A stretch of DNA of 64,000 bases from Cloacibacillus porcorum (GCF_001701045.1 NZ_CP016757.1:823501-887500); one strand, 5' to 3'; positions 1,022 through 32,856 are shown, counted from the stretch's first letter. The notes: generated by a model from the sequence alone, not told the origin. Translations and numbers: made by a program.

Positions 1022-1209
1022 TATCCTCACTGCTTTCTCTCGGTAGATTATGATTTCTTGTTAAAATAAAAAATTAAAAATATATTTCAATATATAGATA
1101 GTAATAGGTGAATGTAATTGGTTTATCAAATTTTACTGAGAGTAATCTGATATTTTGAATATGATATTGATGTAATTTTGATACCGCAGGATAGATTTGA
1201 GAAAAGAAT
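1022..1209. other. AT-rich intergenic stretch
   Basis: This lies between the acnX remnant and the terminator of the YuiF-like gene. It probably held the promoter of the deleted acnX-dctM operon. I see no convincing -35/-10 pair and no open reading frame with homology. Confidence 0.4.
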
Positions 1210-13820: not shown

Positions 13821-14393
13821 ATGAAAATATTTTATGAAGTAGTAGAAAAGATAATGGACAGCAGGGACGTTACGGTTGGCGGAGGCTCGGCCTCCGCTGT
13901 CGCCGGAGCGATGGCCGCGGGGCTTGTGGGGATGGTTTCGCGTCTTTCGGTCGGTAAGGAATACGGCCTTCCCGATGAAAGATACCTTGAGATCGCGGAG
14001 GAGCTTGACGAACTTGCCGTACAGCTAAAAGAGGGCGCGGTAGAGGATACGCGCTCATATCTGGGAATAAAGGCTGCCTTTGCGCTTCCCAAAGCCACCG
14101 ATGAGCAGAAATCCGCGCGCCGCGCGGCGATTGAGAGCGCGGCAATAAGGGCCGCCAATGTGCCGCTGGAAAACGGCCGCGCCGCCCTGCGTATACTGGA
14201 GTTCTGCCGCGAGATGGACGGAAAATTTAACCCCGCGGCCTCGTCGGATATGGAGGCGGGAGTTTTGCTCGCCGAGATGGCCGTTAAAGATACGGCGCTT
14301 AACGTGGAGGCTAATCTTTCACTCATAAAGACGCCGGAGATAAACGAAGAGCTGGCACGGTCGGCCTGCGGGCTCAAAGCCGCGGTACAATAA
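13821..14393 (+). CDS. fchA: Formimidoyltetrahydrofolate cyclodeaminase
   Basis: 190 residues. Converts 5-formimino-THF to 5,10-methenyl-THF and ammonia. The N-terminal GGGSASAVAGAMAAGLVGMV segment is the family hallmark of this all-helical enzyme. It is a stand-alone protein here, whereas in mammals it is fused to the formiminotransferase. ATG follows the hutI stop directly, with the ribosome site (AGGAG) inside the end of hutI, indicating translational coupling. Confidence 0.92.
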   Translation: MKIFYEVVEKIMDSRDVTVGGGSASAVAGAMAAGLVGMVSRLSVGKEYGLPDERYLEIAEELDELAVQLKEGAVEDTRSYLGIKAAFALPKATDEQKSARRAAIESAAIRAANVPLENGRAALRILEFCREMDGKFNPAASSDMEAGVLLAEMAVKDTALNVEANLSLIKTPEINEELARSACGLKAAVQ

Positions 14394-15417: not shown

Positions 15418-15492
15418 AATGTTGCCGCGTAACGGCGGTTTTGGTTTTATGCGGCCCATACCCGAATTTAATATAAAACAGGAGTGGTCAGA

Positions 15493-17166
15493 ATGGCATT
15501 TCTTAGCGACATTGAGATAGCGCAGCAGGCTGCGATGGAGCCCATCGTAGATGTTGCGAAAAAACTCGACATTGACGCGGATGATCTTGAGCTTTACGGC
15601 AAGTATAAGGCGAAGGTTTCTTTTGACCTTTGGGAGAAGGTAAAGGACAACAAGGACGGCAAGCTGATTCTTGTCACCGCGATAACCCCGACTCCTGCGG
15701 GGGAGGGCAAGACTACGACCTCCGTCGGCCTTGCGCAGGCACTGGCGAAGCTCGGCAAAAAGGTAACCCTGGCGCTCCGCGAGCCCTCCCTGGGGCCAGT
15801 CTTCGGAGTGAAGGGCGGAGCCGCCGGCGGCGGTTACAGCCAGGTCGTCCCGATGGAGGATATCAACATTCACTTCACCGGCGACTTCCACGCCATCACC
15901 TCGGCGCACAACCTTCTGGCCGCGATGCTTGACAACTCCATCCAGCAGGGAAATCTCCTCAATATAGACCCGCGCCGCATCGTCTTTAAGCGCGTGCTTG
16001 ACATGAACGACCGCGCGCTGCGCAACATCGTCATCGGCCTCGGCGGCAAGCCCGACGGCGTTCCGCGCCAGGACGGCTTCGACATCACCGTCGCCTCCGA
16101 GATCATGGCGATCCTCTGCCTGTCACAGGGCATCGAGGACCTCAAGGAACGCCTCTCGAAGATAATCGTCGCCTATACCTACGACGACAAACCGGTGACC
16201 GCGAAGGAGCTCGAGGCTCAGGGAGCGATGGCGATGCTGCTGAAGGATGCCATCAAGCCGAACCTCGTCCAGACCCTCGAACATGTCCCCGCCTTCATCC
16301 ACGGCGGCCCCTTCGCGAACATCGCCCACGGCTGCAACAGCGTCATGGCGACAAAATACGGCCTGAAACTTGCCGACTACTTTGTCACCGAGGCTGGCTT
16401 CGCCGCCGACCTTGGCGCGGAAAAATTCCTCGACATCAAATGCCGCCTCGCGGGACTCAAGCCAAACGCCGTCGTCATCGTGGCGACCATCCGTGCCCTT
16501 AAAATGCACGGCGGCGTGGCCAAAGAGGACCTCGGCAAGGTGAACATGGCGGCCCTTGAGGCGGGAATCCCGAACCTCGAGAAGCACGTCGAAAATATGC
16601 TCTCCTTCGGTCTGCCCGTCGTCGTGGCCCTTAACGCCTTCCCGACCGACACTGAGGAAGAGCTTAAATTCATCCAGGAAAAGTGCGCGAAGCTCGGCGT
16701 TCCCGTAGTGGAGTCCGACATTTGGGCGAAGGGCGGCGAGGGCGGCATCAAGATGGCCGAAGAGGTCATCAAGGCCTGCGACAAAGAAAACAGCTTCCAT
16801 TACCTCTACGACGAAAAACTCTCGCCGAAGGAGAAGATCGAGACCATCGCGACGAAGATATACGGAGCGGACGGAGTGGTCTTCACCGACAAGGCGGAAA
16901 AAGACCTCAAGAAGATCCACGACCTTGGCAAAGACGGACTGCTCATCTGCATGGCGAAGACGCAGGCTTCGATCTCCGACGACGCGAGCAAAAAGGGGCG
17001 TCCGACCGGATTCAAACTTACGGTGCGCGAAGTTCGCCTCTCTGCGGGTGCGGGATTCATCATCCCGATCACGGGAGCGATTATGACGATGCCCGGCCTG
17101 CCGAAGCGTCCCGCCGCCTGCAACATCGACGTCGACGCTCAGGGTAAGGTCTCAGGACTCTTCTAG
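15493..17166 (+). CDS. fhs: Formate-tetrahydrofolate ligase
   Basis: 557 residues. Interconverts formate + ATP + THF with 10-formyl-THF. The P-loop-like [18 protein letters not shown] and [21 protein letters not shown] blocks are diagnostic. ATG 15493 is chosen over GTG 15484 because the latter lies in the AGGAG ribosome site. Downstream of the hut genes it can run in reverse, making formate and ATP from the histidine C1 unit once FolD, not in this window, has converted methenyl-THF. A 185-bp gap and a possible separate promoter precede it; a terminator follows. Confidence 0.96.
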
Positions 17167-18626: not shown

Positions 18627-19907
18627 TTACCTCAGCCATTGCAGCAGCCCAAGCGAGAAGACGGGAAAGTATGTGAATAGCAGCAGACAGACGACCATCG
18701 CCATGAAAGAGGGCAGTATCGACTTTGAAATACTTTCGATACTTTCACCCGAGATGGCGGAGGCGACAAAAAGGTTTATCCCATAGGGCGGCGAGATGAA
18801 GCCGCAGGCCAGGTTGACGGTGATTATCAGTCCGAAGTGGATGGGGTCTATCCCGATCGTCTTTACCACCGGCAGCAAGATTGGCGTGAGGATTATCACC
18901 GCCGCGATGTTGTCCACGAAGCAGCCGATCACCAGCAGGAAGACGTTTATCACCATCAGCAGGATGAAGGGGCTGTGGGCGAGGCTCGTCATCCACGAGG
19001 CGATATGCGCCGGTATCTGCGCCATCGCGAGGTAACTGGCAAAGGCCATCGAAAGTCCGATCATAAACTCCGTCGCGCCGTTGATGAGCCCCGTCGTGCG
19101 CAGACACTCATAGAGAGTCTTGCCGTCGAGCTCCTTATAGACGAACTTGCCGATGAGCACCGAGTATACGACGGCGACGACCGCCGCCTCCGTGGGCGTG
19201 AAGATGCCGCCGTAGATGCCGCCGAGGATGATGACCGGCACCAGCAGCGCCCAGAAGGCCTCCCTGAATGCCTTCCACACCGTGGAGAACTTCGGGCGTT
19301 CCGTGACGCTCACATAATGACGTTTCTTCGCCGTGCAGTAACAGACCAGCATCAGCGCGATACCGATCATGACGCCGGGGACAATCCCCGCGATAAACAT
19401 ATCGCCGATCGAACACTGCGCGACAATACAGTAAATGACAAAGGGTATAGAGGGCGGGATGATGACGCCGATAGTTCCCGCCGCCGCGGTTATCGCCGCC
19501 GCGAAGCCCGCGTCATACTTGCGCTCCTTCATCGATGGGATCATAAAAGAGCCGATCGCCGAGACAGTGGCCGGTCCCGAACCGGAGATCGCGGCGAAAA
19601 ACATACATGCGAGCACCGTGACCATCGCCAGGCCGCCCGTGATATAACCGACGAGACTCTCGGCGAGATTCACAAGACGGCGCGAAATACCGCCGTTGCA
19701 CATCAGCGCCCCCGCGAGAATGAAAAATGGTATGGCGAGCAGCGGGAAAGAATCAAGACCAGTCACCGACTTCTGTGCGAGCATCACCATCGGGATATCC
19801 GAAGTGAGCCACATGGCGATGCCGGTAGAGAGGCCGAGCGTGATGCCGATCGGGATACTCAGGCCGATCGTTACGATAAGGATAGAAAAAACTATGACGG
19901 CTTCCAT
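18627..19907 (-). CDS. dctM: TRAP transporter large permease DctM (copy 1)
   Basis: 426 residues, about 12 membrane segments; the 4TMs-type large subunit that forms the substrate path of Na+-coupled TRAP importers. Signatures include SVTGLDSFPLLAIPFFILAG and GTIGVIIPPSIPFVIY. It overlaps the dctQ stop by one base (TGATG). It is almost identical in DNA to the copy at 21827-23107, exactly 3200 bp away, differing mainly in the last 35 codons. No dctP accompanies this copy, so it may share the binding protein encoded at 23703. Confidence 0.94.
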   Translation of the reverse strand: MEAVIVFSILIVTIGLSIPIGITLGLSTGIAMWLTSDIPMVMLAQKSVTGLDSFPLLAIPFFILAGALMCNGGISRRLVNLAESLVGYITGGLAMVTVLACMFFAAISGSGPATVSAIGSFMIPSMKERKYDAGFAAAITAAAGTIGVIIPPSIPFVIYCIVAQCSIGDMFIAGIVPGVMIGIALMLVCYCTAKKRHYVSVTERPKFSTVWKAFREAFWALLVPVIILGGIYGGIFTPTEAAVVAVVYSVLIGKFVYKELDGKTLYECLRTTGLINGATEFMIGLSMAFASYLAMAQIPAHIASWMTSLAHSPFILLMVINVFLLVIGCFVDNIAAVIILTPILLPVVKTIGIDPIHFGLIITVNLACGFISPPYGINLFVASAISGESIESISKSILPSFMAMVVCLLLFTYFPVFSLGLLQWLR

Positions 19908-20413
19908 CAGTGTACCTCCTCAGCGGTATTCTTTATTGGACCGAGTGGTTCGCCCTTCCAGAGCTTGTATACCTCTATTACGAGCCTGATGCACATTAAC
20001 AGGCAGCCCACCGGTACCGATGCATATGGCCAGATCATCGGCAGTTCCATTGCCGCAGAACGCTGTCCTGTTTCGGCAATGAAGATGACAAGCTCAGTGC
20101 CGATGCATGCGAGGATGAAGCTGAAAACGAACCATATGAGCAGGACGAAGTATTCAAAGTATCTGCGTGCGGCTCCAGGTACCATATTGGCGAACATCTC
20201 GACGCGGAAGTGGCTGCGCTCTTTCACTGCATAGCTTGCACCTATCCACGACAGCCAGAGGAAAATAAAGCGTGCCATCTCCTCGCTCCAGGACAGGGAA
20301 TTGGAAAATACATAACGCATTACAACTTGGACAAAAACCAGCAGCGTCATTATCGCCATCGTCCATACGCAGAAATATTCCTCAAAATTGTCAATAAATT
20401 TTTTTAGTGTCAT
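19907..20413 (-). CDS. dctQ: TRAP transporter small permease DctQ (copy 1)
   Basis: 168 residues and four membrane segments, with the family motif RFIFLWLSWIGASYAVKERSHFRVE. ATG 20413 is used because the protein then aligns end to end with DctQ copy 2 and a GGAGGT lies 12 bases upstream; the longer frame to 20554 adds an unrelated leader. It is clearly diverged from copy 2 at DNA level (roughly three quarters identical by eye), unlike the adjoining dctM. Confidence 0.9.
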   Translation of the reverse strand: MTLKKFIDNFEEYFCVWTMAIMTLLVFVQVVMRYVFSNSLSWSEEMARFIFLWLSWIGASYAVKERSHFRVEMFANMVPGAARRYFEYFVLLIWFVFSFILACIGTELVIFIAETGQRSAAMELPMIWPYASVPVGCLLMCIRLVIEVYKLWKGEPLGPIKNTAEEVH

Positions 20414-20818
20414 ATTGTGTACCGTACCTCCAATTCTATTCCGGTTGGCCGTCATTGCTTTTGTTGACAGTAATCTATTTAAATAGTATGCAACATTAGT
20501 ATGTACCACCTCTTGCAGAGATACACAAAAAGGATAATTTAACTTAATCAACACAAATATTATGCTTTTGAGGTTTCCTTAAAAACATAATATTATTAAG
20601 TAAAATGGTTGTCAATACTTATAAAATATGAAAATTTTAGGTATTTGTGGAATGGTTTTTTGTAAAAGTAGTATTTATTGAGTATAAAACATTTTATATA
20701 GTTATTGTTGCTTATGAAAATATAAGCCTTATGAATATATATATCCGAAGATACTAAGTAACGCTGTTGGGCAAATATTTAAATACAATAAGTTAACTTA
20801 ACAATTATATATTTAAAA
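20414..20818. other. AT-rich intergenic region upstream of dctQ copy 1
   Basis: About 400 bp with no homologous frame. A dctP gene would be expected here, and none or only unrecognisable DNA remains. It presumably contains the dctQM promoter. No hairpin terminator for the formate channel gene is evident. Confidence 0.4.
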
Positions 20819-21631
20819 TCAGTCTTTCGCGATATCCCTTCTGTAGATGACGAAATAGAGTACGCCCAGGAAGAAGGCCGCGCCGATGATGTTGCCGATG
20901 GTAACGGGGATCAGGTTGCCGAAGATCGAGCCGATAGTAAGTTCCGGCGCGGGGATCGGAGCGCCCGCGGCCGTCAGGCCGGACTTTATCATAAGGCCAA
21001 GCGGCAGGAAGAACATATTTGCCACGCAGTGTTCAAAGCCCATGGCGACGAAGGCCGTTATGGGCATCAGCAGCGCGATGAATTTGCCGGACATGTCGAG
21101 CGCGCCGAAGGTGAGCCAGACGGCGAGGCCGACGAACCAGTTGCAGAGGAGGCCGCGCAGAATCATCTGGGAAAGCGGGATGCGTACCTTGGCGGCGGCG
21201 ATTGAGAGCGCGTAATCGGCGCAGTTCTTAGACAGCACGCCGCTTTTGAAAATCAGCAGCGCGAAGAAGAGCGCTCCCGCGAAGTTCGCGGCGTAGACCA
21301 CCGAGAGGTTGCGCAGCATGCCGCTCCACGAGATCTTTCCCGCCAGCAGCCCAATCGGCATCAGGCAGTTGCCTGTAAACAGCTCCGCGCCGGCGGCTAC
21401 CACCAGAAAGAGCCCCAGCGAGAAGACGATGCCGCCCAGCAGCTTTGATATGCCGATACCGGCGAAGGCGGCGGCGTCCTGTGTCACGACGATCATAAAG
21501 TAACCGCCCATGGCGATATAGACTCCGGCAAGAAATCCCAGCAGCGTCATCTGAAGAAGCGGCAGGCTGGCCTTGGAAATCGCCGCGGCGACGGCGCTTT
21601 TTGCTATTTCCGGCGGTGTTTTATAGTTCAT
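20819..21631 (-). CDS. Formate/nitrite transporter (FNT) family channel
   Basis: 270 residues from ATG 21631, with GGAGGTCC placed 9 bases upstream. FNT hallmarks are the amphipathic start TPPEIAKSAV, ELFTGNC, and the late VGLAVWLTFGA...GFEHCVANMF block with its channel histidine. Six membrane segments, pentameric channel for formate, nitrite or related small monovalent anions. Its nearness to the Hut-Fhs cluster makes formate export plausible; that is inference. Confidence 0.92.
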   Translation of the reverse strand: MNYKTPPEIAKSAVAAAISKASLPLLQMTLLGFLAGVYIAMGGYFMIVVTQDAAAFAGIGISKLLGGIVFSLGLFLVVAAGAELFTGNCLMPIGLLAGKISWSGMLRNLSVVYAANFAGALFFALLIFKSGVLSKNCADYALSIAAAKVRIPLSQMILRGLLCNWFVGLAVWLTFGALDMSGKFIALLMPITAFVAMGFEHCVANMFFLPLGLMIKSGLTAAGAPIPAPELTIGSIFGNLIPVTIGNIIGAAFFLGVLYFVIYRRDIAKD

Positions 21632-21770
21632 ATCGTATGGACCTCCGTATATATTCGATTGATCATTGTGATTATATCCCAGTTCCATAAACATATCATC
21701 AAACTCTTAACGTGCTCCGGCAGAAATCAGCGCTGAGAGATTGACGTTTAGGATGCGCCCGTTTGTTAAA

Positions 21771-21826: not shown

Positions 21827-23107
21827 TTATCTCAGTACATTAAGCAGCCCCATAGTAAAGATGGGGAAGTATGTGAATAGCAGCAGACAGACGACCATCG
21901 CGAAGAACGACGGCAGAATGGCCTTTGAGATATCCTCGATGCTCTCGCCGGAGATGGCGGAGGCGACGAAGAGGTTTATACCATAGGGCGGCGAGATGAA
22001 GCCGCAGGCCAGGTTGACGGTGATTATCAGTCCGAAGTGGATGGGGTCTATACCGATTGTCTTTACCACCGGCAGCAGGATCGGCGTGAGGATTATCACC
22101 GCTGCGATGTTGTCCACGAAGCAGCCGATCACCAGCAGGAAGACGTTTATCACCATCAGCAGGATGAAGGGGCTGTGGGCGAGGCTCGTCATCCACGAGG
22201 CGATATGCGCCGGTATCTGCGCCATCGCGAGGTAACTGGCAAAGGCCATCGAAAGTCCGATCATAAACTCCGTCGCGCCGTTGATGAGCCCCGTCGTGCG
22301 CAGACACTCATAGAGAGTCTTTCCGTCGAGCTCCTTATAGACGAACTTGCCGATGAGCACCGAGTATACGACGGCGACTACCGCCGCCTCCGTGGGCGTG
22401 AAGATGCCGCCGTAGATGCCGCCGAGGATGATGACCGGCACCAGCAGCGCCCAGAAGGCTTCTCTGAATGCCTTCCACACCGTGGAGAACTTCGGGCGTT
22501 CCGTAACGCTCACATAATGGCGCTTCTTCGCCGTACAGTAACAGACCAGCATCAGCGCGACGCCGATCATGACGCCGGGGACGATCCCCGCGATAAACAT
22601 ATCGCCGATCGAACACTGCGCGACGATACAGTAAATGACAAATGGGATGGAGGGCGGGATGATGACGCCGATAGTTCCCGCAGCCGCGGTTATCGCCGCC
22701 GCGAAGCCCGCGTCATACTTGCGCTCCTTCATCGATGGGATCATAAAAGAGCCGATCGCCGAGACAGTGGCCGGTCCCGAGCCGGAAATTGCCGCGAAAA
22801 ACATACATGCGAGCACCGTGACCATCGCCAGGCCGCCCGTGATATAACCGACGAGACTCTCGGCGAGATTCACAAGACGGCGCGAAATACCGCCGTTGCA
22901 CATCAGCGCCCCCGCGAGGATGAAAAAGGGAATGGCGAGCAGCGGGAAAGAATCGAGACCCGTGACCGACTTCTGCGCGAGCATCACCATCGGGATATCC
23001 GAAGTGAGCCACATGGCGATGCCGGTAGAGAGGCCGAGCGTGATGCCGATCGGGATACTCAGGCCGATCGTTACGATAAGCAGAGAGAAGAGAATAACCG
23101 CTTCCAT
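21827..23107 (-). CDS. dctM: TRAP transporter large permease DctM (copy 2)
   Basis: 426 residues, last gene of the larA-acnX-dctPQM operon. Same signatures as copy 1, with about a kilobase of nearly unchanged DNA. The C-terminal FTYFPIFTMGLLNVLR is also the sequence left in the deletion scar at 885. It should supply the transmembrane uptake path for the substrate handled by the LarA-like and AcnX proteins encoded upstream. Confidence 0.95.
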   Translation of the reverse strand: MEAVILFSLLIVTIGLSIPIGITLGLSTGIAMWLTSDIPMVMLAQKSVTGLDSFPLLAIPFFILAGALMCNGGISRRLVNLAESLVGYITGGLAMVTVLACMFFAAISGSGPATVSAIGSFMIPSMKERKYDAGFAAAITAAAGTIGVIIPPSIPFVIYCIVAQCSIGDMFIAGIVPGVMIGVALMLVCYCTAKKRHYVSVTERPKFSTVWKAFREAFWALLVPVIILGGIYGGIFTPTEAAVVAVVYSVLIGKFVYKELDGKTLYECLRTTGLINGATEFMIGLSMAFASYLAMAQIPAHIASWMTSLAHSPFILLMVINVFLLVIGCFVDNIAAVIILTPILLPVVKTIGIDPIHFGLIITVNLACGFISPPYGINLFVASAISGESIEDISKAILPSFFAMVVCLLLFTYFPIFTMGLLNVLR

Positions 23108-23620
23108 CTATATCATCTCCTCCAATTCTTCCTGTTCCTTCTCCGAGCCCACCGGTTCGCCCTTATAAATCTTGTACATCTCAATAAGCAGGCGGATACA
23201 CATCAGGCCGCAGCCGACGGGTACGGAGGCATATGGCCAGGTCATGGGGATATCCATGGCGGCGGAAGACTGCCCTGTGTCATAAATAAAGACGACGAGT
23301 TCAGTCCCGAGCCAGGTGAGAATAAAACTGAAGACAAACCAGACCACCAGAACAAAATACTCAAAAAACCTGCGGCAGCTGCCCTTGATCATATTGGCGA
23401 ACATCTCCACGCGGAAATGGCTGCGTTCCTTAACGGCGTAACTTGCGCCGATCCAGGAAAGCCAGAGGAAAATAAACCGGGCGAGCTCCTCGCTCCAAGA
23501 GAGAGAGTTTGAGAAGACATACCTCATAACAACCTGGATAAAGACGAGAATGGTCATAATGGCCATAGTCCAGACGCAGAAATACTCCTCGAAATTATCT
23601 AAAAACTTTTTGACGGTCAT
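23108..23620 (-). CDS. dctQ: TRAP transporter small permease DctQ (copy 2)
   Basis: 170 residues, four membrane segments, same central motif as copy 1. ATG 23620 follows AGGAGG. The stop TAG immediately precedes the dctM ATG. A stable hairpin separates it from dctP upstream. Confidence 0.92.
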   Translation of the reverse strand: MTVKKFLDNFEEYFCVWTMAIMTILVFIQVVMRYVFSNSLSWSEELARFIFLWLSWIGASYAVKERSHFRVEMFANMIKGSCRRFFEYFVLVVWFVFSFILTWLGTELVVFIYDTGQSSAAMDIPMTWPYASVPVGCGLMCIRLLIEMYKIYKGEPVGSEKEQEELEEMI

Positions 23621-23651
23621 CGTGATAACAACCTCCTGCGATGGTAATAAA

Positions 23652-23677
23652 GCGCGTCCCTTATGCAAGGGACGCGC
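23652..23677 (-). terminator. Intercistronic hairpin dctP-dctQ
   Basis: GCGCGTCCCTT pairs perfectly with AAGGGACGCGC around a 4-base loop, followed on the minus strand by TTTATTA. Probably a leaky terminator or mRNA-end stabiliser giving more binding protein than permease, as often seen in binding-protein-dependent operons. Confidence 0.6.
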
Positions 23678-23702
23678 AAACGGTGCTCACGCTTCGAAAA
23701 GA

Positions 23703-24686
23703 TTACTTCTGAACCTTTCTTGCGATATCCATGATCTCCTTGCCGAGCTCGTTTTCAAACTGGGCGTAGACCTTCTTGGTCGCTTCCACGAAGGGCTTCT
23801 TCTGTTCCGGCGTCAGCTCGTTGGCGGTCAGACCGGCTTTGGTGACCTTCGCTTTGAAGGCGGCCTCTTCCTTTTCAAGGCTGGCGCGCTGTGTCATGAT
23901 GGCCTTGTGGGCCGCGTCAACTACCACCTTGCGGAGGTCGGCGGGGAGCTTGTCCATGAACTTCTTGTTGGCGATGAGTATCTCGTAGGAGAATACGTGC
24001 CCCGTCTCGGAGACGTACTTCTGCACTTCGTAGAACTTACCGTCGTCGATCATCGCGTAGGGGTTTTCCTCCGCGTCGACGGTGCCCTGCTGCAGGGCCG
24101 TGTAAAGCTCGCCCCAGCTCATCGGGGTGGGGTTGGCGCCGAGTTCCTTGAAGAAGGCGATGTGCATCGGGTTTTCCATCGTACGGATCTTGAGTCCCTT
24201 GAGGTCGGCGGGGGTCTTGATGGGGCGCTTGCTGTTCGTCACATGGCGGAAGCCGTTCTCCTGATAACCCAGAACCTCGAAGCCCTTCTTTGAGAGGTAT
24301 GTGTTGAGCTTCTGTCCGAGCTCGCCGTCTACCGCGTCAAAGGCCGCCTTTCTCGTGGTGAAGAGATAGGGAAGGTCGAGGACCTGTATTCTCTTGTCGA
24401 ATCCCGCAAGGGCCGACGTCGAGGGGATAGCCATCTGGATCGTACCCATCTGTACGCCTTCGCAGAGCTCACGGTCGCCGCCGAGCTGCGCGTTGGGATA
24501 GAGCTCGACTTTGATCTTGCCATTTGAACCTGCGTCCACATCCTTGGCGAAGACCTTCATAGCCTGCATCGTCGGGTGGGTATCGGAGCCGATGTAGCCG
24601 ACCTTGATCGTGTACTCGGGGGCCGCGAAGGCCGCGCCTGCCGCCATAATAGCCATAAACGTTACTGCTGCCAGAAGTTTCTTCAT
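23703..24686 (-). CDS. dctP: TRAP transporter substrate-binding protein DctP
   Basis: 327 residues with a clear signal peptide (MKKLLAAVTFMAIMAAGAAFA). Mature features include NAQLGGDRELCEGVQMG, GYQENGFRHVTNSKRPI, and LKIRTMENPMH with the conserved arginine that salt-bridges the ligand carboxylate in DctP proteins. It is predicted to bind an organic acid in the periplasm and hand it to DctQM. GGGAGG precedes ATG. It follows the acnX genes, so the ligand is probably the AcnX/LarA substrate or its precursor. Confidence 0.95.
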   Translation of the reverse strand: MKKLLAAVTFMAIMAAGAAFAAPEYTIKVGYIGSDTHPTMQAMKVFAKDVDAGSNGKIKVELYPNAQLGGDRELCEGVQMGTIQMAIPSTSALAGFDKRIQVLDLPYLFTTRKAAFDAVDGELGQKLNTYLSKKGFEVLGYQENGFRHVTNSKRPIKTPADLKGLKIRTMENPMHIAFFKELGANPTPMSWGELYTALQQGTVDAEENPYAMIDDGKFYEVQKYVSETGHVFSYEILIANKKFMDKLPADLRKVVVDAAHKAIMTQRASLEKEEAAFKAKVTKAGLTANELTPEQKKPFVEATKKVYAQFENELGKEIMDIARKVQK

Positions 24687-24749
24687 ATTCTTGTTCCTCC
24701 CTGTTTTTTTTGTTTGCCTGAAAAATTCAAAAAGCTGCGCTATGTGGGA

Positions 24750-25184
24750 TCAGTCCGCCGCTTTACCTCCTTTCCACACGCGTACCTCCTGGGCGTCAGC
24801 GTCGACCTCGACATAATCGCCGTCGGCGATAGCCTCGAAGGGGTCATCATCAAGACGGTCGACCATAGTCGCGCCGACCATAACGGCTGAGGATACGATG
24901 ACTGGTTCGGGTACCCCTATGATTATTGCGGCCGGCAGGTTGTTTCTCACCCACAGCTGGTAGAAGCCGTCTGCCTGGACTACGGAACTCCCTTTGCCGG
25001 ACTGGAGGACCAGCACCTTGCCGGAGATGCTTTTGCCCTCGATCGCGTGGTTTCTCTCTATGACGGTGCCGGTGGTCGGGTCGGTAAGGTAGAAGCACAT
25101 CGCGTCTTTAGACACGACCGCCTCTCCCGCTCCTGACCCACGGACTATCGAACGGCACTTGTAAACTTTCTTGTTGTTAGCCAT
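24750..25184 (-). CDS. Aconitase-X small subunit (DUF126 swivel domain)
   Basis: 144 residues. DUF126 proteins are the swivelling domain partner of AcnX; the SGKGSS motif (in LVLQSGKGSSVV) contributes to the active site. ATG overlaps the large-subunit stop by one base (TAATG), fitting a heterodimer made in equal amounts. Known AcnX enzymes dehydrate cis-3-hydroxy-L-proline in bacteria or mevalonate 5-phosphate in archaea. The substrate here is unknown. Confidence 0.9.
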   Translation of the reverse strand: MANNKKVYKCRSIVRGSGAGEAVVSKDAMCFYLTDPTTGTVIERNHAIEGKSISGKVLVLQSGKGSSVVQADGFYQLWVRNNLPAAIIIGVPEPVIVSSAVMVGATMVDRLDDDPFEAIADGDYVEVDADAQEVRVWKGGKAAD

Positions 25185-26401
25185 TAGTCAAGCCTCCCCT
25201 TCACAGCGGCATCTATACATTCCGACAGCCTGCGGATGGCGAAGGGCTGTCCGCGGCGTTCACGGTAATAGGCGCACTTGGGCGAATCCGTTACGCCGAG
25301 CGCACCCTCGAACGATTTCCAGCAGGGTTCATCGATACAGGTGTCTCCCACCATCCGTACACCGAGCAGCTCCAGCCTCTGACGCAGGTGCGAGCGTTCC
25401 GCGAGCTCCACTGCTCCCGATTCCGCAAGAATCCAGAAGGCCGTCTCGTTGCAGATATGCCTGCCGGCGAGAAGCCTCTCGACGTCAAGCAGCTGATTGT
25501 AGGTGTAATGCGGACAGCCGAGCATGACGAGGTTGATCTTTCCGGTAGCGGGTGTAAGCATATCCTCCCGATCCTTGAGGTCCTTATTCGTGAGCACGCA
25601 TTCTGCCGATGGGACCTTCCTGCCGCCGAATGCCGCCTCTATGGTCGGAGCCTCCGGGGTGATCCCCACCATGTGATACATCGCGACGGCGCCGCTCGTG
25701 GCGGCCTCCGCGCCGAAATAGAGGAAATCCTCCTGAGTCGGGCGGACGGGCTTCTTGAATCTGAGCACGGGGATACGGTTGCCCGCGATCTTTCCCAGGC
25801 AATGTCCGAGTATGCCCCAGTCGTAGCAGCTTTCCAGATCGGCCTCGACGTCGACGGCGAAGTCGCCGTATCTGTTTTCGTCGATGTGGAATCCGTAATA
25901 AGGAGTCTTGCCGATAACGGCGGCGGCGAGCGCGCTCACCGAAGATTCGCGGTTAGAGCGGGCGCCGAGTGCGCCGTTGACATATGGAGTGGCGCTGGAC
26001 TCGGAAAAGGCCACATGCTCGCCAAAGAAGGGCACGTTGGAACATACTCCCGGCGCGCAGTGATATGTGAGCTTAGCGCCGATACGGCGGTAGGCGTCGC
26101 CGGTCCTGTCGGCGAGCTCAAGCTCTTCCTTTGTGACGTCAAAAAACTTCGTCAGATAATTAGTGTCCCAGTAGGGGTTGGTGGTGGGGGGGACGGCGCA
26201 TGTGGCGCCGCCGTTTACCAGCAGTTCGCACCAGTAAGTGTCGCCCTCCTGTCCGCTAAGGGCGACGTGCGCGCGCTTAACGGGGATGAGCTTCTCCGCG
26301 TCGAAGGTGAGACCGAGAGCGTAGAGCATCTCCATCGCCTTCTGCTTTCCAGCTCCTTCTCCTCCGTCCAGTATCCGTTTCTCTTCATCGGTTAAATACA
26401 T
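25184..26401 (-). CDS. Aconitase-X catalytic subunit (DUF521)
   Basis: 405 residues, normal family length. The three cysteines expected to hold the Fe-S cluster appear at C68 (NGGATCAVPPTTNPYW), C296 (VMLGCPHYT) and C355 (VGDTCID). Also visible are HCAPGVCSNVPFFGEH and SSATPYVNGALGARSNRE. A hydro-lyase acting on a hydroxy acid. It is 21 bases after the LarA-like gene and overlaps the small subunit. Pairing with a nickel-pincer racemase suggests one enzyme inverts a carbon centre and the other dehydrates the product. Confidence 0.92.
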   Translation of the reverse strand: MYLTDEEKRILDGGEGAGKQKAMEMLYALGLTFDAEKLIPVKRAHVALSGQEGDTYWCELLVNGGATCAVPPTTNPYWDTNYLTKFFDVTKEELELADRTGDAYRRIGAKLTYHCAPGVCSNVPFFGEHVAFSESSATPYVNGALGARSNRESSVSALAAAVIGKTPYYGFHIDENRYGDFAVDVEADLESCYDWGILGHCLGKIAGNRIPVLRFKKPVRPTQEDFLYFGAEAATSGAVAMYHMVGITPEAPTIEAAFGGRKVPSAECVLTNKDLKDREDMLTPATGKINLVMLGCPHYTYNQLLDVERLLAGRHICNETAFWILAESGAVELAERSHLRQRLELLGVRMVGDTCIDEPCWKSFEGALGVTDSPKCAYYRERRGQPFAIRRLSECIDAAVKGRLD

Positions 26402-26422
26402 TACAAACCGCCTTTCTATGTG

Positions 26423-27712
26423 CTATTTTTTCATTAAGACAGGTAAAGATATCCCGCCAAGGGGCAGTATGCCGACGGTCGCCTGCGGCCGCTTAGCCAG
26501 CGCCGCGTCAAGAGCCTCCTGTATGCTGGCCGCCGGAATATATTCCATCTTCCGTATCTCTTCCTCGGAGAGGCCGTCGCTGATCATGTAGACCTCGGCC
26601 CTTTCAAGCACGCGGCGGCTGCCGAGGGCGACTACGGCGGAGATGACGTCGGTATCCAGGTCATAGGGAGAGGCTGCCTCTATCGCCTCCACAAGGACCT
26701 TAGTGGGCTGCGCGAGCCAGTGCGCGTAAAGAGGATGATTATGCACCAGTCCCTCATAACAGGGGGCGGCGAGGATCACGGCGCCGCCGGGCTTCACCGC
26801 GAAGTACGCGGAGGTGAGCCCCTTGATGCCCTGCCAGTAGTCCATATCGGCGGGCGACGAACTGGCGATCACGATATCGGCGAGCTCGTCGAGCTCCACG
26901 CTGTAGGATTTTCTAGCGAGCTCGACCCCGGCGCGGTGCGCCTTTAAATAATCGCCGCAGAAGAAGCCGGCGATCTCGCCGCTGAAGTTTTTGACCACGT
27001 TGATGATGAAGGCCAGCTTTGCGATGCCGCCTACGGCGTCGATGCCCATGCGGCAGGGGTTTCCGTCGATCATCCCGAGCGGGATGTCCGGGCAGAGCCC
27101 AGCGCCCCTGTGGGTCGCCTGTGTCGTCACGAAATCGCAGACGCCGGGCTGGACGATCTTCGCGCCGCCGGAGAAGCCGGCGTCGCTGTGCGGAATGATG
27201 TTGCCGACGCCGACTAGAAGGTCGGCCTCCAGAGCGCGGCGGTTGATGCGGACCGGAAGCTTGTATCCTCCGGCCTCGACCTCGCCGAGATCGGTCAGCT
27301 CTTCCGTATTTGAAGCCTCATGCTGGTATACGGCGAAGTTGTCGACTATATAGGAGCCAAGTTTCTCTCGCACCTCCTCGTCAGTCATCAGTCGGTGCGT
27401 CCCGGGGGCGGTCATGAAACTTACGGCGCTCTCGGGGATGCCGGCGGCCTTAAGATAGCCGGTGACGACCGGCAGTATCTCCGCCAGCGGGGTATCTCTC
27501 GTATTGTCCTCAACAAGGAACAGAATATTTTTTTTGCCCTTTGCGAGCGAAGCGAGTGACTGTGAGGCGATGGGAGCATCCAAAGAGCGTATGAGTTCCT
27601 CTTTGAAGTCTGAGACTGGCGGGATATTGGTCATCTCTCCCGAGAATAGGACCCTGTTTGTGTGAATCTCGAAATCCATAGAACGATTTCCATATGGAAT
27701 GCTATATTTCAT
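26423..27712 (-). CDS. LarA-family nickel-pincer racemase/epimerase
   Basis: 429 residues. The active-site residues of lactate racemase LarA are all present at nearly the same numbers: H106 (APGTHR), H175 (IPHSDAG), K185 (SGGAKIVQPG, the residue carrying the nickel pincer cofactor) and H201 (QATHRGAG). The family racemises or epimerises 2-hydroxy acids by hydride transfer and needs LarB, LarC and LarE, none of which is in the window. It is the first gene of the operon with AcnX and a TRAP importer, so the substrate is likely a larger hydroxy acid, not necessarily lactate. Confidence 0.9.
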   Translation of the reverse strand: MKYSIPYGNRSMDFEIHTNRVLFSGEMTNIPPVSDFKEELIRSLDAPIASQSLASLAKGKKNILFLVEDNTRDTPLAEILPVVTGYLKAAGIPESAVSFMTAPGTHRLMTDEEVREKLGSYIVDNFAVYQHEASNTEELTDLGEVEAGGYKLPVRINRRALEADLLVGVGNIIPHSDAGFSGGAKIVQPGVCDFVTTQATHRGAGLCPDIPLGMIDGNPCRMGIDAVGGIAKLAFIINVVKNFSGEIAGFFCGDYLKAHRAGVELARKSYSVELDELADIVIASSSPADMDYWQGIKGLTSAYFAVKPGGAVILAAPCYEGLVHNHPLYAHWLAQPTKVLVEAIEAASPYDLDTDVISAVVALGSRRVLERAEVYMISDGLSEEEIRKMEYIPAASIQEALDAALAKRPQATVGILPLGGISLPVLMKK

Positions 27713-27767
27713 TGCCGATTCCTCCCAGCGATAATACTAAAATCGTGAATGTCTTAGGTACGCCGTC

Positions 27768-27775
27768 TGTATACA
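27768..27775. promoter_or_regulatory. Candidate GntR operator, larA-side
   Basis: TGTATACA palindrome (CTGTATACAA in context) 55 bases upstream of the LarA-family gene. An identical core occurs at 27963 beside the GntR gene promoter. TNGTATACNA palindromes are typical of FCD-type GntR operators. Confidence 0.5.
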
Positions 27776-27932
27776 ATGAAAATATATACTCTGCTCTAAC
27801 ATCTGTTTAATTGGATAAACACATTCCCTAAAATTACAAAAACTTCTACGTAAAGATGATAATATTGTGATAAATAAATGTCAACCATGAGATCAAAGGA
27901 AATTTTACGATAATTTTTTTGCGGAAAAGTAT

Positions 27933-27970
27933 AGACAAAATTACAAAATGTTGTATAGTTTCTGTATACA
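27933..27970 (+). promoter_or_regulatory. Promoter and overlapping operator of the GntR gene
   Basis: TAGACA (27933-27938), a 16-bp spacer and TATAGT (27955-27960) form a fair sigma-70-type promoter. The TGTATACA palindrome at 27963-27970 covers the predicted start of transcription, as expected for autorepression. Confidence 0.5.
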
Positions 27971-28069
27971 AGCATCTTAAGAATTAGAATTTATAGCCTA
28001 GACATTTATCCATACGGATGGTTTTTATACGTGTACGCGGGGATTCTTGCCAAACTGGGAGGGACAGAA

Positions 28070-28732
28070 ATGATGTCGAAGAATGAAAAGGCCAGCTGGG
28101 TGAAGGCCTACAACTGGATAAGGGAGGGGATCGACTCCTGCGCGCTGAAGATGGGCGAACCTCTTCCCGAGACATTTATCGCGAATGAGACCGGCGTAAG
28201 CCGCACTCCCGTCCGTGAGGCGCTGCGCGTTCTAGAACAGGACGGCTATATAAAGATAGTTCCCCTTAAGGGGGCCTTCGTCTCCGAGATATCCCTTGAG
28301 GACGTACGCGAGATATATGATATAAGAAAGCTGCTCGAACCCTTTGCCGCGCTCTCCGCGGCCAACCGCATACCAGACAGTGAAATAAAAGAGATGTCAG
28401 CCGAGTGGGAACGGCTTAGTAAGAGGGCGGAGAACGGCGAGGAGATAGACTTTTCAACCGTCGCCGACTGTGACCTCAAGCTGCACTTTACGATTGCGAA
28501 GTATGCGACGAACAGGCGCATCGGCGCGATACTGATGAGCTATCATGTGCAGATCAAGCGCTTTCAGCGCCTCTCCGCGCAGTCTCTCGCCGATATTCGC
28601 AATTCCATAGAACAGCACATCATCATCCTGAACTGTATCAAACGCAGAGATCCAAAGGCTCTTCACGCCTGCCTATACGACCACGTCGTCAACAGCGAGG
28701 GGTATATAATGAAGGACTATTTTCTGCGGTAA
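28070..28732 (+). CDS. GntR-family transcriptional regulator, FCD subfamily
   Basis: 220 residues from ATG 28070 (GGAGGG 7 bases upstream). N-terminal winged helix with ANETGVSRTPVREALRVLEQDGYIKI, then the FCD ligand-binding domain whose metal/ligand residues include D and H in CDLKLHFTIAK and the histidines in EQHIIILNCIKRRD and YDHVV. FCD regulators sense organic acids. Divergent transcription from the larA-acnX-dctPQM operon and two shared palindromes make it the likely repressor of that operon and of itself. Confidence 0.9.
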   Translation: MMSKNEKASWVKAYNWIREGIDSCALKMGEPLPETFIANETGVSRTPVREALRVLEQDGYIKIVPLKGAFVSEISLEDVREIYDIRKLLEPFAALSAANRIPDSEIKEMSAEWERLSKRAENGEEIDFSTVADCDLKLHFTIAKYATNRRIGAILMSYHVQIKRFQRLSAQSLADIRNSIEQHIIILNCIKRRDPKALHACLYDHVVNSEGYIMKDYFLR

Positions 28733-29082: not shown

Positions 29083-30096
29083 ATGTTTTTCAAGAATGCC
29101 GGTAAAGTATTGCTGGCGGCGGTGATTGCGTGTGGTTTCGCATTTATGGGTACACGGGCCGACTGTAGTGACTCCAAGGTTTATACCATCAGGATAGGTT
29201 CGATCAGTTCAGAGGCGATACCAGAGGTGCGGGCCGCTTATGAGTTTAAAAAAGAGATTGAAAAATCAAGCGGCGGAAGGATCAAGGTCGAGGTATTCCC
29301 TAACGGCGCGCTGGGAGGGGACCGTCAAATGGCGGAGGCCGTCTCGCTGGGAACGCTGGATATGGTGCTGACGACGACGTCGGCCCTGACCACCTATGAG
29401 CCTAAGTTTGGGATACTGGATATGCCGTTTGCCTTTTCCGACGCGCAGGCCGCTTTTAAGGCTGTCGACGGGGAGCTCGGCCAGTATCTGAATAAGGAGC
29501 TGGAACGGAGCGCGGGAATGGTCAATTTGGGATATATGCTGAACGGCGTGCGCCATATGGTGAACAGCAAACGTCCGATCAACGCTCCTTCGGATCTGGC
29601 TGGATTGAAGATGAGGGTCATGGAGAGCCCCGTTTACATCGGACTTTTTAAGGCACTTGGCGCGAACCCCACGCCGATGTCCTTCACGGAAGTCTATACC
29701 TCCCTGCAGCAGAAGACGATAGACGGTTTTGAGGTCAGCGCCAATTTTATGGTGGAGATGAAATTTTACGACGTCCAGAAGTATTACAGCCTTACGGGGC
29801 ATACGGTATCGTTTCTCGTCGCCGCGATGAACAAAAACAAGTTTGATAAACTGCCGTCCGACCTTCAAAAGATGGTCGCGGCCTCGGCGAAGAAGTGGTT
29901 CGTGGATTATCAGAGGAAGGTATCTCTGAGCGAGGACGCCGGTTACATAAAACAGCTTAAGTCGCACGGAATGAGCGTCAACGGCATAACGCCGGAGAAC
30001 CACGCGAAGTTTGTCAAAGCCGTGCAGCCGGTATATGCCGAATTTGAGAAAAAATTGGGTAAGGACGTCTTTGTGCTGCTGAAAAAGTATCAGTAG
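29083..30096 (+). CDS. dctP: TRAP transporter substrate-binding protein DctP
   Basis: 337 residues with an N-terminal signal segment (LLAAVIACGFAFMGTRADC), possibly a lipoprotein-like or ordinary cleavage site. NGALGGDRQMAEAVSLG, GYMLNGVRHMVNSKRPI and LKMRVMESPVY with the ligand arginine are clear. Similar to the protein at 23703 but well diverged. GAGGAGGTC precedes ATG. First gene of dctPQM. Confidence 0.94.
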   Translation: MFFKNAGKVLLAAVIACGFAFMGTRADCSDSKVYTIRIGSISSEAIPEVRAAYEFKKEIEKSSGGRIKVEVFPNGALGGDRQMAEAVSLGTLDMVLTTTSALTTYEPKFGILDMPFAFSDAQAAFKAVDGELGQYLNKELERSAGMVNLGYMLNGVRHMVNSKRPINAPSDLAGLKMRVMESPVYIGLFKALGANPTPMSFTEVYTSLQQKTIDGFEVSANFMVEMKFYDVQKYYSLTGHTVSFLVAAMNKNKFDKLPSDLQKMVAASAKKWFVDYQRKVSLSEDAGYIKQLKSHGMSVNGITPENHAKFVKAVQPVYAEFEKKLGKDVFVLLKKYQ

Positions 30097-30110
30097 TTTT
30101 TACGGCAGAA

Positions 30111-30148
30111 CCAGTGCGGATGGGCATATACATCTCTGTCCGCACTGG
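30111..30148 (+). terminator. Intercistronic hairpin dctP-dctQ
   Basis: CCAGTGCGGA pairs perfectly with TCCGCACTGG around an 18-base loop, with no strong T-run. It occupies the same place as the hairpin at 23652 in the other TRAP operon and probably sets the ratio of binding protein to permease. Confidence 0.55.
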
Positions 30149-30178
30149 TCGGTCAAAGCGCAGATAGGAGTGGCGAAA

Positions 30179-30685
30179 TTGAGTGCGGTGTTAAGGCTGT
30201 ACAACAAGTTTGAAGAGTATCTTTTGGTTTTAAGTTTAGCGGTCTCAGTCGCGCTTGTCGCCCTTCAGATCGTTTTCAGATATTTCATTAACGCTTCCAT
30301 CCCCTGGAGCGAAGAGCTGACGCGGTATATTTTTATCTGGCAGATATGGCTGGGAACGAGTTTTGCGCAGAGGGACGGCAAGCACCTGAAGGTCGAAGTT
30401 TTGTATTCCCTGATGAATCCAGCCGGTAAAAAGTTTTTAAGCGTGCTTTCTAACCTCATCTTTCTCTCGTTTTGTGTATTTCTTACGGTGAACGGCTTTT
30501 CTCTTGTCATGAATCTGGCTCACCGATATTCCCTCTCTCCCGCGATGGAGATCCCGCTGCTTTTTGTGTATCTGTCGCTGCCTGTGAGCAACTTCGTGCT
30601 TGCCGTCAGGATCATCGCCGGGCTCAAAGATATAGTCCTGGCACCGGCGTCCGCTTTCGCAGACAAGAAGGAGGAGATACGGTAA
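30179..30685 (+). CDS. dctQ: TRAP transporter small permease DctQ
   Basis: 168 residues with four membrane segments and the motif WSEELTRYIFIWQIWLGTSFAQRDGKHLKVE. TTG 30179 is 8 bases from AGGAG; the GTG at 30170 overlaps that ribosome site and is less likely. The stop overlaps the dctM ATG by one base (TAATG). Confidence 0.9.
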   Translation: MSAVLRLYNKFEEYLLVLSLAVSVALVALQIVFRYFINASIPWSEELTRYIFIWQIWLGTSFAQRDGKHLKVEVLYSLMNPAGKKFLSVLSNLIFLSFCVFLTVNGFSLVMNLAHRYSLSPAMEIPLLFVYLSLPVSNFVLAVRIIAGLKDIVLAPASAFADKKEEIR

Positions 30686-31965
30686 TGGAATTCGCGGTCT
30701 TATTTGGCTCTTTTCTCGTGCTGATTCTGCTGACCGTTCCCGTCGGCTACGCTATCGGCATATCCACGCTGATCACGCTCTATTTTTTCTCCGACATATC
30801 GTTCGTCATGATCTCACAGAACGCCGTGGCGGGAGTCGATTCCTTTTCCCTCCTGGCGATTCCTTTCTTTATCCTCGCTGGAAGCCTGATGAGCGCCGGC
30901 GGTCTGGCTAAGCGGCTGCTCAATTTTGCCAATATCTGTGTCGGCGCGGTGACTGGCGGCCTTGCCATGGTGACCACGGTTACCTGTATGTTCTTTGCCG
31001 CGCTCTCCGGTTCCGCCGTCGCCACGACATCCGCCGTCGGCTCGTTTATGATCCCGGCGATGAAAGAGAAGGGCTACGACGAGGGATTTGCCGCCGCGCT
31101 CGCCGCTGCGGCCGGCACCATCGGCATCATCATCCCGCCGAGCATCCCGCTTGTCATCTACGGCGTGGTGGTTGGCGCCTCCATTGGTGAGCTGTTTATC
31201 GCGGGGATCATTCCGGGAATAATAATGGGCGTGGCGATCCTGATAGTATGTTACGTCATTTCAAAGAAGAAAGGGTACAGAGGAACCGCGGAGAAGCTGA
31301 CGCTGAAAAGTTTTTCTCACTCCTTTGTGGACGCCATCTGGGCGTTTATGGCCCCGGGGATAATCTTGGGCGGTATCTACTGGGGGATATGCACTCCCAC
31401 CGAGGCGGCGGTGATAGCGGTCTTGTACTCTCTGTTCACCGGCGTCGTCATCTACCGCGAACTGACGTTTGCGAAGATTTACGAAGCCTTCGTGGAGACG
31501 CTGACGGTCAATGGAGCGACGACCTTTATGGTGGGCCTTTCGATGGCTTTCGCGAGTTATCTCATAATGGCCGGACTGCCGCAGCAGATCGCGTCGTTTC
31601 TCATAAGCATCACCGACAGCAGGATAGTGCTCTTTATGATCGTGAATCTCTTTTTGCTGGCAGTGGGCAGCCTCATCGACCCGATACCGGCGATAATAAT
31701 ACTTGCCCCGATCCTGCTGCCGGTGATGACGAAATTCGGCATGTCGCCCGTCACCTTCGGCGTCGTGCTGGTGGCGAATCTGGCTATCGGCTATATAACG
31801 CCGCCATATGGCGTCAACCTGTTTGTGGCGATGGCGGTGGCGAAGATCCCGATGGAGCGGATGTTTAAATATATCGTCGCGCTGTTTTTAGCGATGCTTG
31901 CCGCTCTGATGCTGATCACATACTGCGACTCCGCGACGATGCACCTGGTGCGGTTCCTAAAATAA
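30685..31965 (+). CDS. dctM: TRAP transporter large permease DctM
   Basis: 426 residues; ATG 30685 with AGGAGATA upstream, although the frame is open back to 30472 inside dctQ. AVAGVDSFSLLAIPFFILAG and GTIGIIIPPSIPLVIYGVV identify the family. It is a distant homologue of the duplicated dctM pair. Its last 9 bases overlap the convergent LysR gene. Confidence 0.94.
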   Translation: MEFAVLFGSFLVLILLTVPVGYAIGISTLITLYFFSDISFVMISQNAVAGVDSFSLLAIPFFILAGSLMSAGGLAKRLLNFANICVGAVTGGLAMVTTVTCMFFAALSGSAVATTSAVGSFMIPAMKEKGYDEGFAAALAAAAGTIGIIIPPSIPLVIYGVVVGASIGELFIAGIIPGIIMGVAILIVCYVISKKKGYRGTAEKLTLKSFSHSFVDAIWAFMAPGIILGGIYWGICTPTEAAVIAVLYSLFTGVVIYRELTFAKIYEAFVETLTVNGATTFMVGLSMAFASYLIMAGLPQQIASFLISITDSRIVLFMIVNLFLLAVGSLIDPIPAIIILAPILLPVMTKFGMSPVTFGVVLVANLAIGYITPPYGVNLFVAMAVAKIPMERMFKYIVALFLAMLAALMLITYCDSATMHLVRFLK

Positions 31966-32856
31966 TTTAACGTCGACGTCCATTATCTCCAGCAGCTTCT
32001 TGGCCATCGGCGAGATATACTGCTTGGGATTAAAGATGACTACCGGTTTTGTATCGGAGCTTACGCCCTCTATCCGTTTGATGTTCGTCCGTTTGTTGGG
32101 AAGGTGTTTTAACAGCTGCTGCGGCATAATGGTGGCCCCCAGCCCGCTGAATACCAGCATTATCGCCAAAGAGGAGTTTGAACACTGGCAGATGATATTT
32201 GGTTTGATGTTGAGGTTGGCGAAATCGTTGATAAAAAGTTCGTTGTAGCCGATGCTTTTGCCGTCGTGCAGCATGATCAGCGGAAGTTCGGCCATCTCCT
32301 CCAGCGAGATATAGTCTCGCTGAGGGCAGGAGTCCATCGCGGCGGGAACGGCGAGATAGAATTGTTCGGCCGCGAGGGGAACCACGGCCAGCGAACCGGC
32401 GTTGAAGGTAGGCGTGCGCAGGAAGAGCAGTTCGATCTCTCTCTTGTAGAGAAGGTCCAGCAGGTTGTTGGGGGTGTCTTCCCATATCTTATAGGTCACA
32501 TGCGGATGTAACGAGGCAAATTTTTTCAGGTAGTCCGTCAGCTTGGGCGTACATGATATCAGCGAGCCTATCTTCAGGATACCGGAGAGATTTTCGGGAA
32601 TGTCGTCGTTGATGTAATACTTCAGATTTTCTATTTGGAATATCAGATCCTGAGCCTTTTGCAGGAGGGCCTCTCCGGCCGAGGTCAGCTCCAGCCCCTT
32701 TTTAGTCCTGAGAAAGAGAGGTTTGCCGATCTCTTTTTCCAGTTCGATGATATGCCTGCTTAATGGCGGCTGTGCCATGAATAACTTTTGGGCGGCCTTT
32801 GTTATCTGCCCTTCGTTGGCGACGGTAACAAAATATTTCAGCTGTTTTATATCCAT
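31957..32856 (-). CDS. LysR-family transcriptional regulator
   Basis: 299 residues. N-terminal winged HTH (LKYFVTVANEGQITKAAQKLFMAQPPLSRHIIELEKEIG split across residues 6-44) followed by a periplasmic-binding-fold effector domain. It is divergent from the FAD oxidoreductase at 32944 across an 87-bp gap, the standard LysR arrangement, so that gene and perhaps the aminotransferase are likely targets. It ends overlapping the TRAP dctM 3' end, which it could also serve. Confidence 0.92.
   Translation of the reverse strand: MDIKQLKYFVTVANEGQITKAAQKLFMAQPPLSRHIIELEKEIGKPLFLRTKKGLELTSAGEALLQKAQDLIFQIENLKYYINDDIPENLSGILKIGSLISCTPKLTDYLKKFASLHPHVTYKIWEDTPNNLLDLLYKREIELLFLRTPTFNAGSLAVVPLAAEQFYLAVPAAMDSCPQRDYISLEEMAELPLIMLHDGKSIGYNELFINDFANLNIKPNIICQCSNSSLAIMLVFSGLGATIMPQQLLKHLPNKRTNIKRIEGVSSDTKPVVIFNPKQYISPMAKKLLEIMDVDVKLF

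Follow-up and report, generated by a model that had tools for sequence, protein, structure and literature searches.

A larA-acnX-dctPQM operon of Cloacibacillus porcorum as a candidate entry module for imidazolelactate into the Hut pathway

Which compound is handled by an operon that joins a nickel-pincer racemase, both subunits of aconitase X (AcnX) and a complete tripartite ATP-independent periplasmic (TRAP) importer? Together with its divergent regulator gene, such an operon occupies positions 21827-28732 of a 64,000-nucleotide stretch of the Cloacibacillus porcorum genome (the window; bases 823501-887500 of the complete 3,585,187-base genome). An earlier note on this DNA had modelled the system as uptake of a hydroxylated acid, inversion at C2 by the LarA-like enzyme and dehydration by AcnX, and had hinted at a family of such systems. 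These parts are supported by our analysis. Overlooked in that note were the hut genes nearby, and these suggest that the product is urocanate. On balance we favour the reading that the operon is an entry module through which a histidine-derived 2-hydroxy acid, most likely imidazolelactate, would reach the Hut pathway, and we regard it as probable from the sequences that known enzyme families have been assembled into a new entrance to histidine-type catabolism.

The genes of the operon are all on the minus strand: a LarA-family nickel-pincer 2-hydroxyacid racemase/epimerase (26423-27712; Lar_N 5e-49 plus LarA_C), which we propose to be an imidazolelactate racemase; the AcnX type-II large subunit (25184-26401; PF04412, 1e-117), a proposed imidazolelactate dehydratase; the AcnX small (swivel) subunit with the catalytic-serine motif GKGSSV (24750-25184; PF01989 AcnX_swivel, 4e-22); and the TRAP solute-binding protein DctP (23703-24686; PF03480, 1e-98), small permease DctQ (23108-23668; PF04290, 1e-37) and large permease DctM (21827-23107; PF06808, 9e-122). 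The six genes likely form a single operon because the intergenic gaps are only -1 to about 60 bp. On the plus strand, divergent from the operon, lies the gene for an FCD-type GntR regulator (28031-28732; Pfam FCD 1.5e-24, GntR 4e-13). The open reading frames and Pfam matches thus bear out the gene set described before, and solved homologues match at E values of 1e-57 to 1e-58, by which the folds are fixed.

That the set might be peculiar to this strain can be set aside. In a scan that covered 84,980 species, 79 AcnX loci were detected, 74 of them usable; the named close relatives of the window AcnX belong to the Synergistales. Genes for acnX, larA and TRAP transport were found in many Synergistales genera, and more distant AcnX with larA and TRAP genes occur in Clostridium pascui, Clostridium peptidivorans, Acidaminobacter, Desulforhopalus and a Desulfobacterales metagenome-assembled genome (MAG); besides Synergistales, relatives of the gene set are present in Clostridia, Negativicutes and Desulfobacterota. 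Among 101 Synergistales genomes, 19 of the 22 genes of the LarA clade lie within 9 kb of acnX, whereas of the other LarA homologues that passed the search cut-off, 53 in all, none does (Fisher p = 5e-15, without correction for relatedness); the larA-acnX association is far beyond chance. Moreover, LarA, LarAH22 or a D-2-hydroxyacid dehydrogenase (2HADH) stands beside AcnX in 62 of the 74 loci, and the AcnX substrate is therefore probably a 2-hydroxy acid.

A specific candidate for that acid comes from the hut genes. The window carries, all on the plus strand, genes for histidine ammonia-lyase (HAL; 2894-4474; hutH TIGR01225, 653.7 bits against a cut-off of 539), a short-form urocanate hydratase (10731-12449; hutU, 620 against 375), imidazolonepropionase HutI (12561-13820; TIGR01224, 348.5 against 298), an FTCD_C cyclodeaminase-type protein (13821-14393; PF04961, 1e-42), glutamate formimidoyltransferase (14402-15307; TIGR02024, 387 against 221) and formate-tetrahydrofolate (THF) ligase (15484-17166; PF01268, 3e-277). 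HutH, HutU, HutI and the formimidoyltransferase, which identify the Hut pathway, all exceed curated cut-offs, and the hut operon terminates 4.7 kb from the larA-acnX-TRAP operon. Across the 74 loci, a hut gene within 7 kb of AcnX was found in 30 (Synergistota, Clostridia, Bacilli, Negativicutes, Desulfobacterota and Bathyarchaeota), with urocanate hydratase, imidazolonepropionase and HAL as recurrent neighbours of the AcnX clade. In the AcnX tree the hut-adjacent members are scattered across nearly all sub-clades (17 changes), and the link is therefore either old or repeatedly regained. Gene orders (clusters are referred to by L numbers, genomes by G numbers) include HutU-HutI-DctPQM-AcnX-LarA in a member of the Desulfobacterales (L126), HAL-GntR-AcnX-LarA-Fhs-AcnX-DctPQM-HutU-HutI-FTCD in a member of the Synergistales (L047) and HutF-like-AcnX-2HADH-ABC-HutU-HutI in Heyndrickxia (L102). 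In Bathyarchaeota the order 2HADH-AcnX-aminotransferase would fit a conversion of histidine via imidazolepyruvate to imidazolelactate.

The link to urocanate extends to a gene fusion. In cluster L098, with the order LarA-AcnX-[AcnXs-HutU]-2HADH, the AcnX small subunit (residues 11-139) continues in frame into a urocanate hydratase (residues 156-693; hutU, 974 bits against 375), and the same genome has a second, unfused urocanase that adjoins HAL. Candidate fusions in L045 and L084 were rejected, the apparent N-terminal extension being an out-of-frame read.

HAL itself is not matched everywhere: 15 of the 29 AcnX genomes searched gave no HAL/methylidene-imidazolone (MIO) aromatic-lyase match. 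In 10 of these 15 the AcnX locus carries a urocanase gene, and among the ten are four isolates (Heyndrickxia acidiproducens, Sporolactobacillus terrae, S. shoreae and S. spathodeae). Among 26 Sporolactobacillaceae genomes AcnX is present in seven, each of which has HutU; HutU without HAL is found in just three genomes, all three with AcnX, while the eight that have HutU and lack AcnX all show a HAL match (HAL-less, 3/7 with AcnX against 0/8 without; the numbers are small). In Synergistales, 8 of 12 urocanases of the short form, as in the window, are within 20 kb of acnX compared with 2 of 80 of the long form (p = 2e-7). Taken from the sequences, a link of the AcnX clade to urocanate is well supported.

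LarA has the domains of the nickel-pincer superfamily with both catalytic histidines, the arginine, the lysine and the cofactor-site histidine; specifically, the four active-site residues pointed out earlier (R75, H108, H174 and K184 of LarA_Lp, in the numbering of the Lactobacillus enzyme) are retained and so are H200, Q295 and K298. The cofactor genes larE, larB and larC are grouped at about 293-296 kb of the genome, all above curated cut-offs, which answers the earlier concern that the protein might not be charged with nickel. The specificity positions read S, D, V, V in the window and S/C, D, V/D, L/I/V in its clade; the former fit no described LarAH group and the latter fall outside all groups defined in PMC11770544, where the native substrate of many LarA homologues is not assigned. 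Lactate racemase is not indicated (265.7 bits against a cut-off of 460; signature F, F, W, E/Q). At the position of F176, 35 of 36 clade members have Asp, a possible contact to an imidazolium, which an aspartate turned towards the side chain of the substrate would suit; this D176 signature is shared by the LarA proteins of the hut-adjacent clusters L126 and L108. Five distant LarA proteins of AcnX clusters have F or Y at W358, a trait of hydrophobic and aromatic 2-hydroxyacid racemases (PMC11770544), and none of them reaches a curated subfamily cut-off. A plasmid search for larA returned nothing closer than distant matches of at most 32% identity.

AcnX is likewise a clear family member (PF04412, 393.7 bits with cut-off 31.5; PF01989, 78.4 bits with cut-off 27). 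As claimed before, the three Fe-S cysteines (C115, C296 and C355) are kept, and the window shares them, along with the catalytic E134, S135, K375 and Y379, with essentially all members of the clade; S66 and S67 of the small subunit are present in every one of 105 small subunits of the clade. The columns H45, S49, Q51, D54, D357, W361 and R383 are invariant or nearly so in 98 clade members, whether hut-adjacent or not, and most of these pocket columns differ in the cis-3-hydroxy-L-proline (C3LHyp) and mevalonate-5-phosphate enzymes; H45, S49, Q51 and D54 form a pocket signature that sets the clade apart from both of these characterised enzymes. Assignment as mevalonate-5-phosphate dehydratase is not supported, columns 45, 49, 51, 54, 357 and 361 being unlike those of TkAcnX. 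The structural study of the family explicitly left AcnX types IIc-IIf without a function (PMC8184944). A remnant of a second AcnX large-subunit gene, which the earlier note had taken as a sign that the genome once had another version of the system, is real (893-1030, minus strand) and matches the N-terminus of a second AcnX type; it is tiny, with about 22 N-terminal residues (MELTKDQLGMLHGEQGEAVAYA), and an intact counterpart is present in the relative G027 (L051), where the order HAL-transporter-AcnX is as in the window.

From the gene set, the residues, the conserved association, the hut linkage, the fusion, the cofactor genes and the operator-like sites described below, all read directly from the DNA, we infer the identity of the substrate, the reaction and stereochemistry of AcnX and the specificity of transport as follows. 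Imidazolelactate would come from other microbes, which form it from histidine by transamination and reduction and release it, and would be taken up by DctPQM. LarA, with the nickel-pincer cofactor supplied by LarB, LarC and LarE, would invert C2 and make either enantiomer usable, whereupon the large and small subunits of AcnX, with the Fe-S cluster as Lewis acid, would remove the 2-hydroxyl and a C3 hydrogen to yield urocanate. HutU, HutI and the formiminotransferase set would convert urocanate to glutamate and a one-carbon unit on THF, from which formate-THF ligase would produce ATP and formate, the latter leaving through a channel of the FNT type. C. porcorum has been reported to grow on histidine and to make formate from it, a result that concerns histidine and not imidazolelactate (PMC3709534). 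More tentatively, and at somewhat less than even confidence, the reading may be widened: the large AcnX clade of Synergistota, Firmicutes, Desulfobacterota, Bathyarchaeota and others would be an imidazolelactate dehydratase. Urocanate would then arise by an Fe-S dehydration that evolved independently of the MIO-dependent HAL and is an alternative to it, with nickel-pincer racemases of at least three types recruited to the enzyme.

Several points weigh against assigning imidazolelactate. In the AcnX reactions that have been characterised, a beta-hydroxyl is lost and the proton removed is the acidic one at the alpha carbon, whereas imidazolelactate requires loss of the alpha-hydroxyl with a less acidic beta proton, and this is the weakest step of the model. 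The AcnX sub-clade of the window itself has no hut genes within 6 kb of acnX, and in several relatives an IlvD-type dehydratase is the neighbour of acnX. Some clusters combine two AcnX copies with a racemase, so the substrates of the paralogues may differ, and the window encodes HAL as well, which makes the route non-essential there. The AcnXs-HutU fusion is from one MAG only, on a 106-kb contig. Finally, mutual exclusion of LarA and 2HADH (naive p = 1e-6) was discarded as an argument; the phylogenetic pair test was not significant.

The alternative that survives best, though we judge it rather unlikely, has AcnX making the substrate of urocanase from another imidazole compound (3-hydroxy-3-imidazolylpropanoate, an imidazolelactate modified on the ring, or a 2,3-dihydroxy imidazolyl acid whose dehydration would give imidazolepyruvate), while LarA and 2HADH handle a related intermediate. 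AcnX would then perform its established beta-hydroxyl elimination; in some hut-linked clusters the place of LarA is taken by HisD-like dehydrogenases, short-chain dehydrogenases/reductases (SDR) and zinc alcohol dehydrogenases, accompanied by ABC transporters of the sugar type or of other types, which suggests that the substrate is a polyol or an alcohol; and the urocanase of the window is a divergent short form whose top NCBIfam score is to the S-methylthiourocanate hydratase model, below that cut-off. However, LarA and D-2-hydroxyacid dehydrogenases require a 2-hydroxy acid, FTCD-type enzymes imply an imidazole that is unsubstituted at C2 downstream, and both the fused L098 urocanase and that of Sporolactobacillus exceed the hutU cut-off. 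Ergothioneine-type catabolism was considered separately and rejected, the window urocanase scoring high on NCBIfam thiourocanate models yet below their cut-offs and HutI/FTCD implying an unsubstituted ring.

It is also unlikely that divergence has led the window's LarA-AcnX-TRAP sub-clade to degrade an unrelated 2-hydroxy or 2,3-dihydroxy acid, with incidental proximity to hut genes in the window. Such divergence would agree with the spacing of hut genes in this sub-clade, with the IlvD-type dehydratase that adjoins in several genera and Sporomusa and with the joint occurrence of two AcnX types in some hut clusters, but the AcnX pocket signature is unchanged, the D176 signature is common to the LarA proteins of the window and L126 and L108, the nearest outer AcnX sub-clades are hut-adjacent, and both the window and G021 have a short urocanase no more than 20 kb from acnX. 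We consider it improbable that the operon degrades a dicarboxylate of the malate, tartrate or 2-hydroxyglutarate type, with LarA as malate or hydroxyglutarate racemase (LarAH5/6 for malate) and AcnX as hydro-lyase: C4 acids are frequent cargo of TRAP systems and the LarAH6 malate-racemase model gives the top NCBIfam score for LarA, but at 296.8 bits it stays below the cut-off of 500, and S, D, V, V, with V, V at W358/T359, is unlike the H/Q and K of malate racemases at these positions or the Y, F, H/Q, T of hydroxyglutarate racemases (PMC11770544). As a substrate, cis-3-hydroxyproline, which the earlier note had listed for enzyme assays, is disfavoured to the point of being very improbable: of the two AcnX activities that have been characterised, one is C3LHyp dehydration (PMC5144071, PMC8184944), but the NCBIfam score is 208.8 bits against a cut-off of 700, the amine-binding residues are not conserved (Ala near the Asp203 position, Val at that of Thr72), LarA works on 2-hydroxy acids and the context is hut, not hydroxyproline.

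With respect to regulation, the palindrome CTGTATACAA is present in exactly two copies across the window, both exact and both in the gntR-larA intergenic region, one near larA (27767-27776) and one near gntR (27962-27971). At the corresponding intergenic position in relatives CTGTATACA is seen again, and the GntR gene adjoins the module in many relatives. The two CTGTATACAA sites are probably GntR operators, and we infer for the regulator an action and a ligand such that GntR would repress both divergent promoters until substrate or product is present.

The proposed exit for formate is a FocA/FNT-type formate/nitrite channel (20819-21694, minus strand; PF01226, 4.8e-75), a gene that is part of the cluster in three genomes, i.e. 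the window and, at the same position, G001 and G021. It is flanked by two DctQM pairs (18627-20554 and 21827-23668). The second pair (18627-20554, minus strand) is a near-duplicate in dctM; most dctM tracts are 94-100% identical and dctQ about 72-77%, which suggests gene conversion or a recent partial duplication. Beyond gntR, at 29083-32856, is a second TRAP system (DctP and a DctM-type permease) with a LysR regulator; it is not found at the corresponding spot in the same-genus genome G001.

Variants of the clusters were also recorded. Near the GntR/LarA-AcnX module an IlvD-type dihydroxy-acid dehydratase was seen in L052, L053, L058, L064-L066, L076, L077, L079 and L140 (several Synergistales genera and Sporomusa), the homologue in the window being 14 kb off at 42618-44297. 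A HisD-like dehydrogenase replaces or joins the racemase in L087, L101, L109, L113, L118, L125, L127, L128, L133, L137 and L148, often together with SDR and zinc alcohol dehydrogenases and at times a sugar-type ABC importer, suggesting an imidazolyl alcohol or polyol that is oxidised to a hydroxy acid. Two AcnX copies of different sub-clades accompany a single racemase or dehydrogenase in L043, L045, L047, L103, L107, L131 and L151. A divergent AcnX branch is found beside HAL in L067 and L068 (G001 and G014), and in L067 a subunit of a xanthine-dehydrogenase-type molybdenum hydroxylase adjoins it. An old-yellow-enzyme type flavoprotein reductase adjoins AcnX in L105, L138 and L150, possibly a urocanate or enoate reductase that yields imidazole propionate. 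A different LarA type (NCBIfam nickel-pincer nucleotide (NPN) isomerase group 22) takes the place of LarA beside AcnX in several Firmicutes (L123, L132, L134, L136 and L138), and at position about 794 kb of the window's own genome (L061, 8145-9434) a gene of this type occurs with a TRAP set and without AcnX.

If AcnX does convert imidazolelactate to urocanate, gut and sediment anaerobes would have an entry to histidine-type catabolism that is independent of HAL, genomes with urocanase and without HAL would be accounted for, and imidazolelactate that other microbes release could be salvaged in the form of glutamate, formate and ATP. To our knowledge this would be the first non-radical, CoA-free dehydration of such an aromatic 2-hydroxy acid, and it raises the chemical question of how the alpha-hydroxyl could be eliminated by an aconitase-type enzyme when no acidic beta proton is available. 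The proposal would give a specific function to AcnX types that lacked one and a native substrate to a group of LarA proteins; in the library searched we found no paper linking AcnX with LarA (DUF2088), urocanate or imidazolelactate.

Compared with the known Hut pathway (HutH, HutU, HutI, FTCD), the downstream enzymes are identical, urocanate is the proposed shared intermediate and the genes are neighbours in the window and many relatives, but the proposed route would reach urocanate by dehydration of a 2-hydroxy acid and without HAL, for which several genomes show no match. The AcnX proteins share with the characterised enzymes the fold, the separate type-II large and small subunits, the Fe-S cysteines and the catalytic Glu, Ser, Lys and Tyr, whereas the clade of the window is distinct, with its own pocket signature, without the substrate landmark residues and linked to hut and not to hydroxyproline or mevalonate. 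With the LarA superfamily (lactate racemase, 5HUQ; malate racemase Mar2, 6d6z; hydrophobic 2-hydroxyacid racemases) the Lar_N/LarA_C domains, the catalytic histidines, the cofactor residues and larBCE in the genome are held in common, but the specificity signature of the clade matches no characterised group and the link to acnX is restricted to this clade. Finally, the set resembles other DctPQM importers under FCD-GntR control in having a complete importer and a typical divergent regulator, and differs from these in being coupled to LarA and AcnX.

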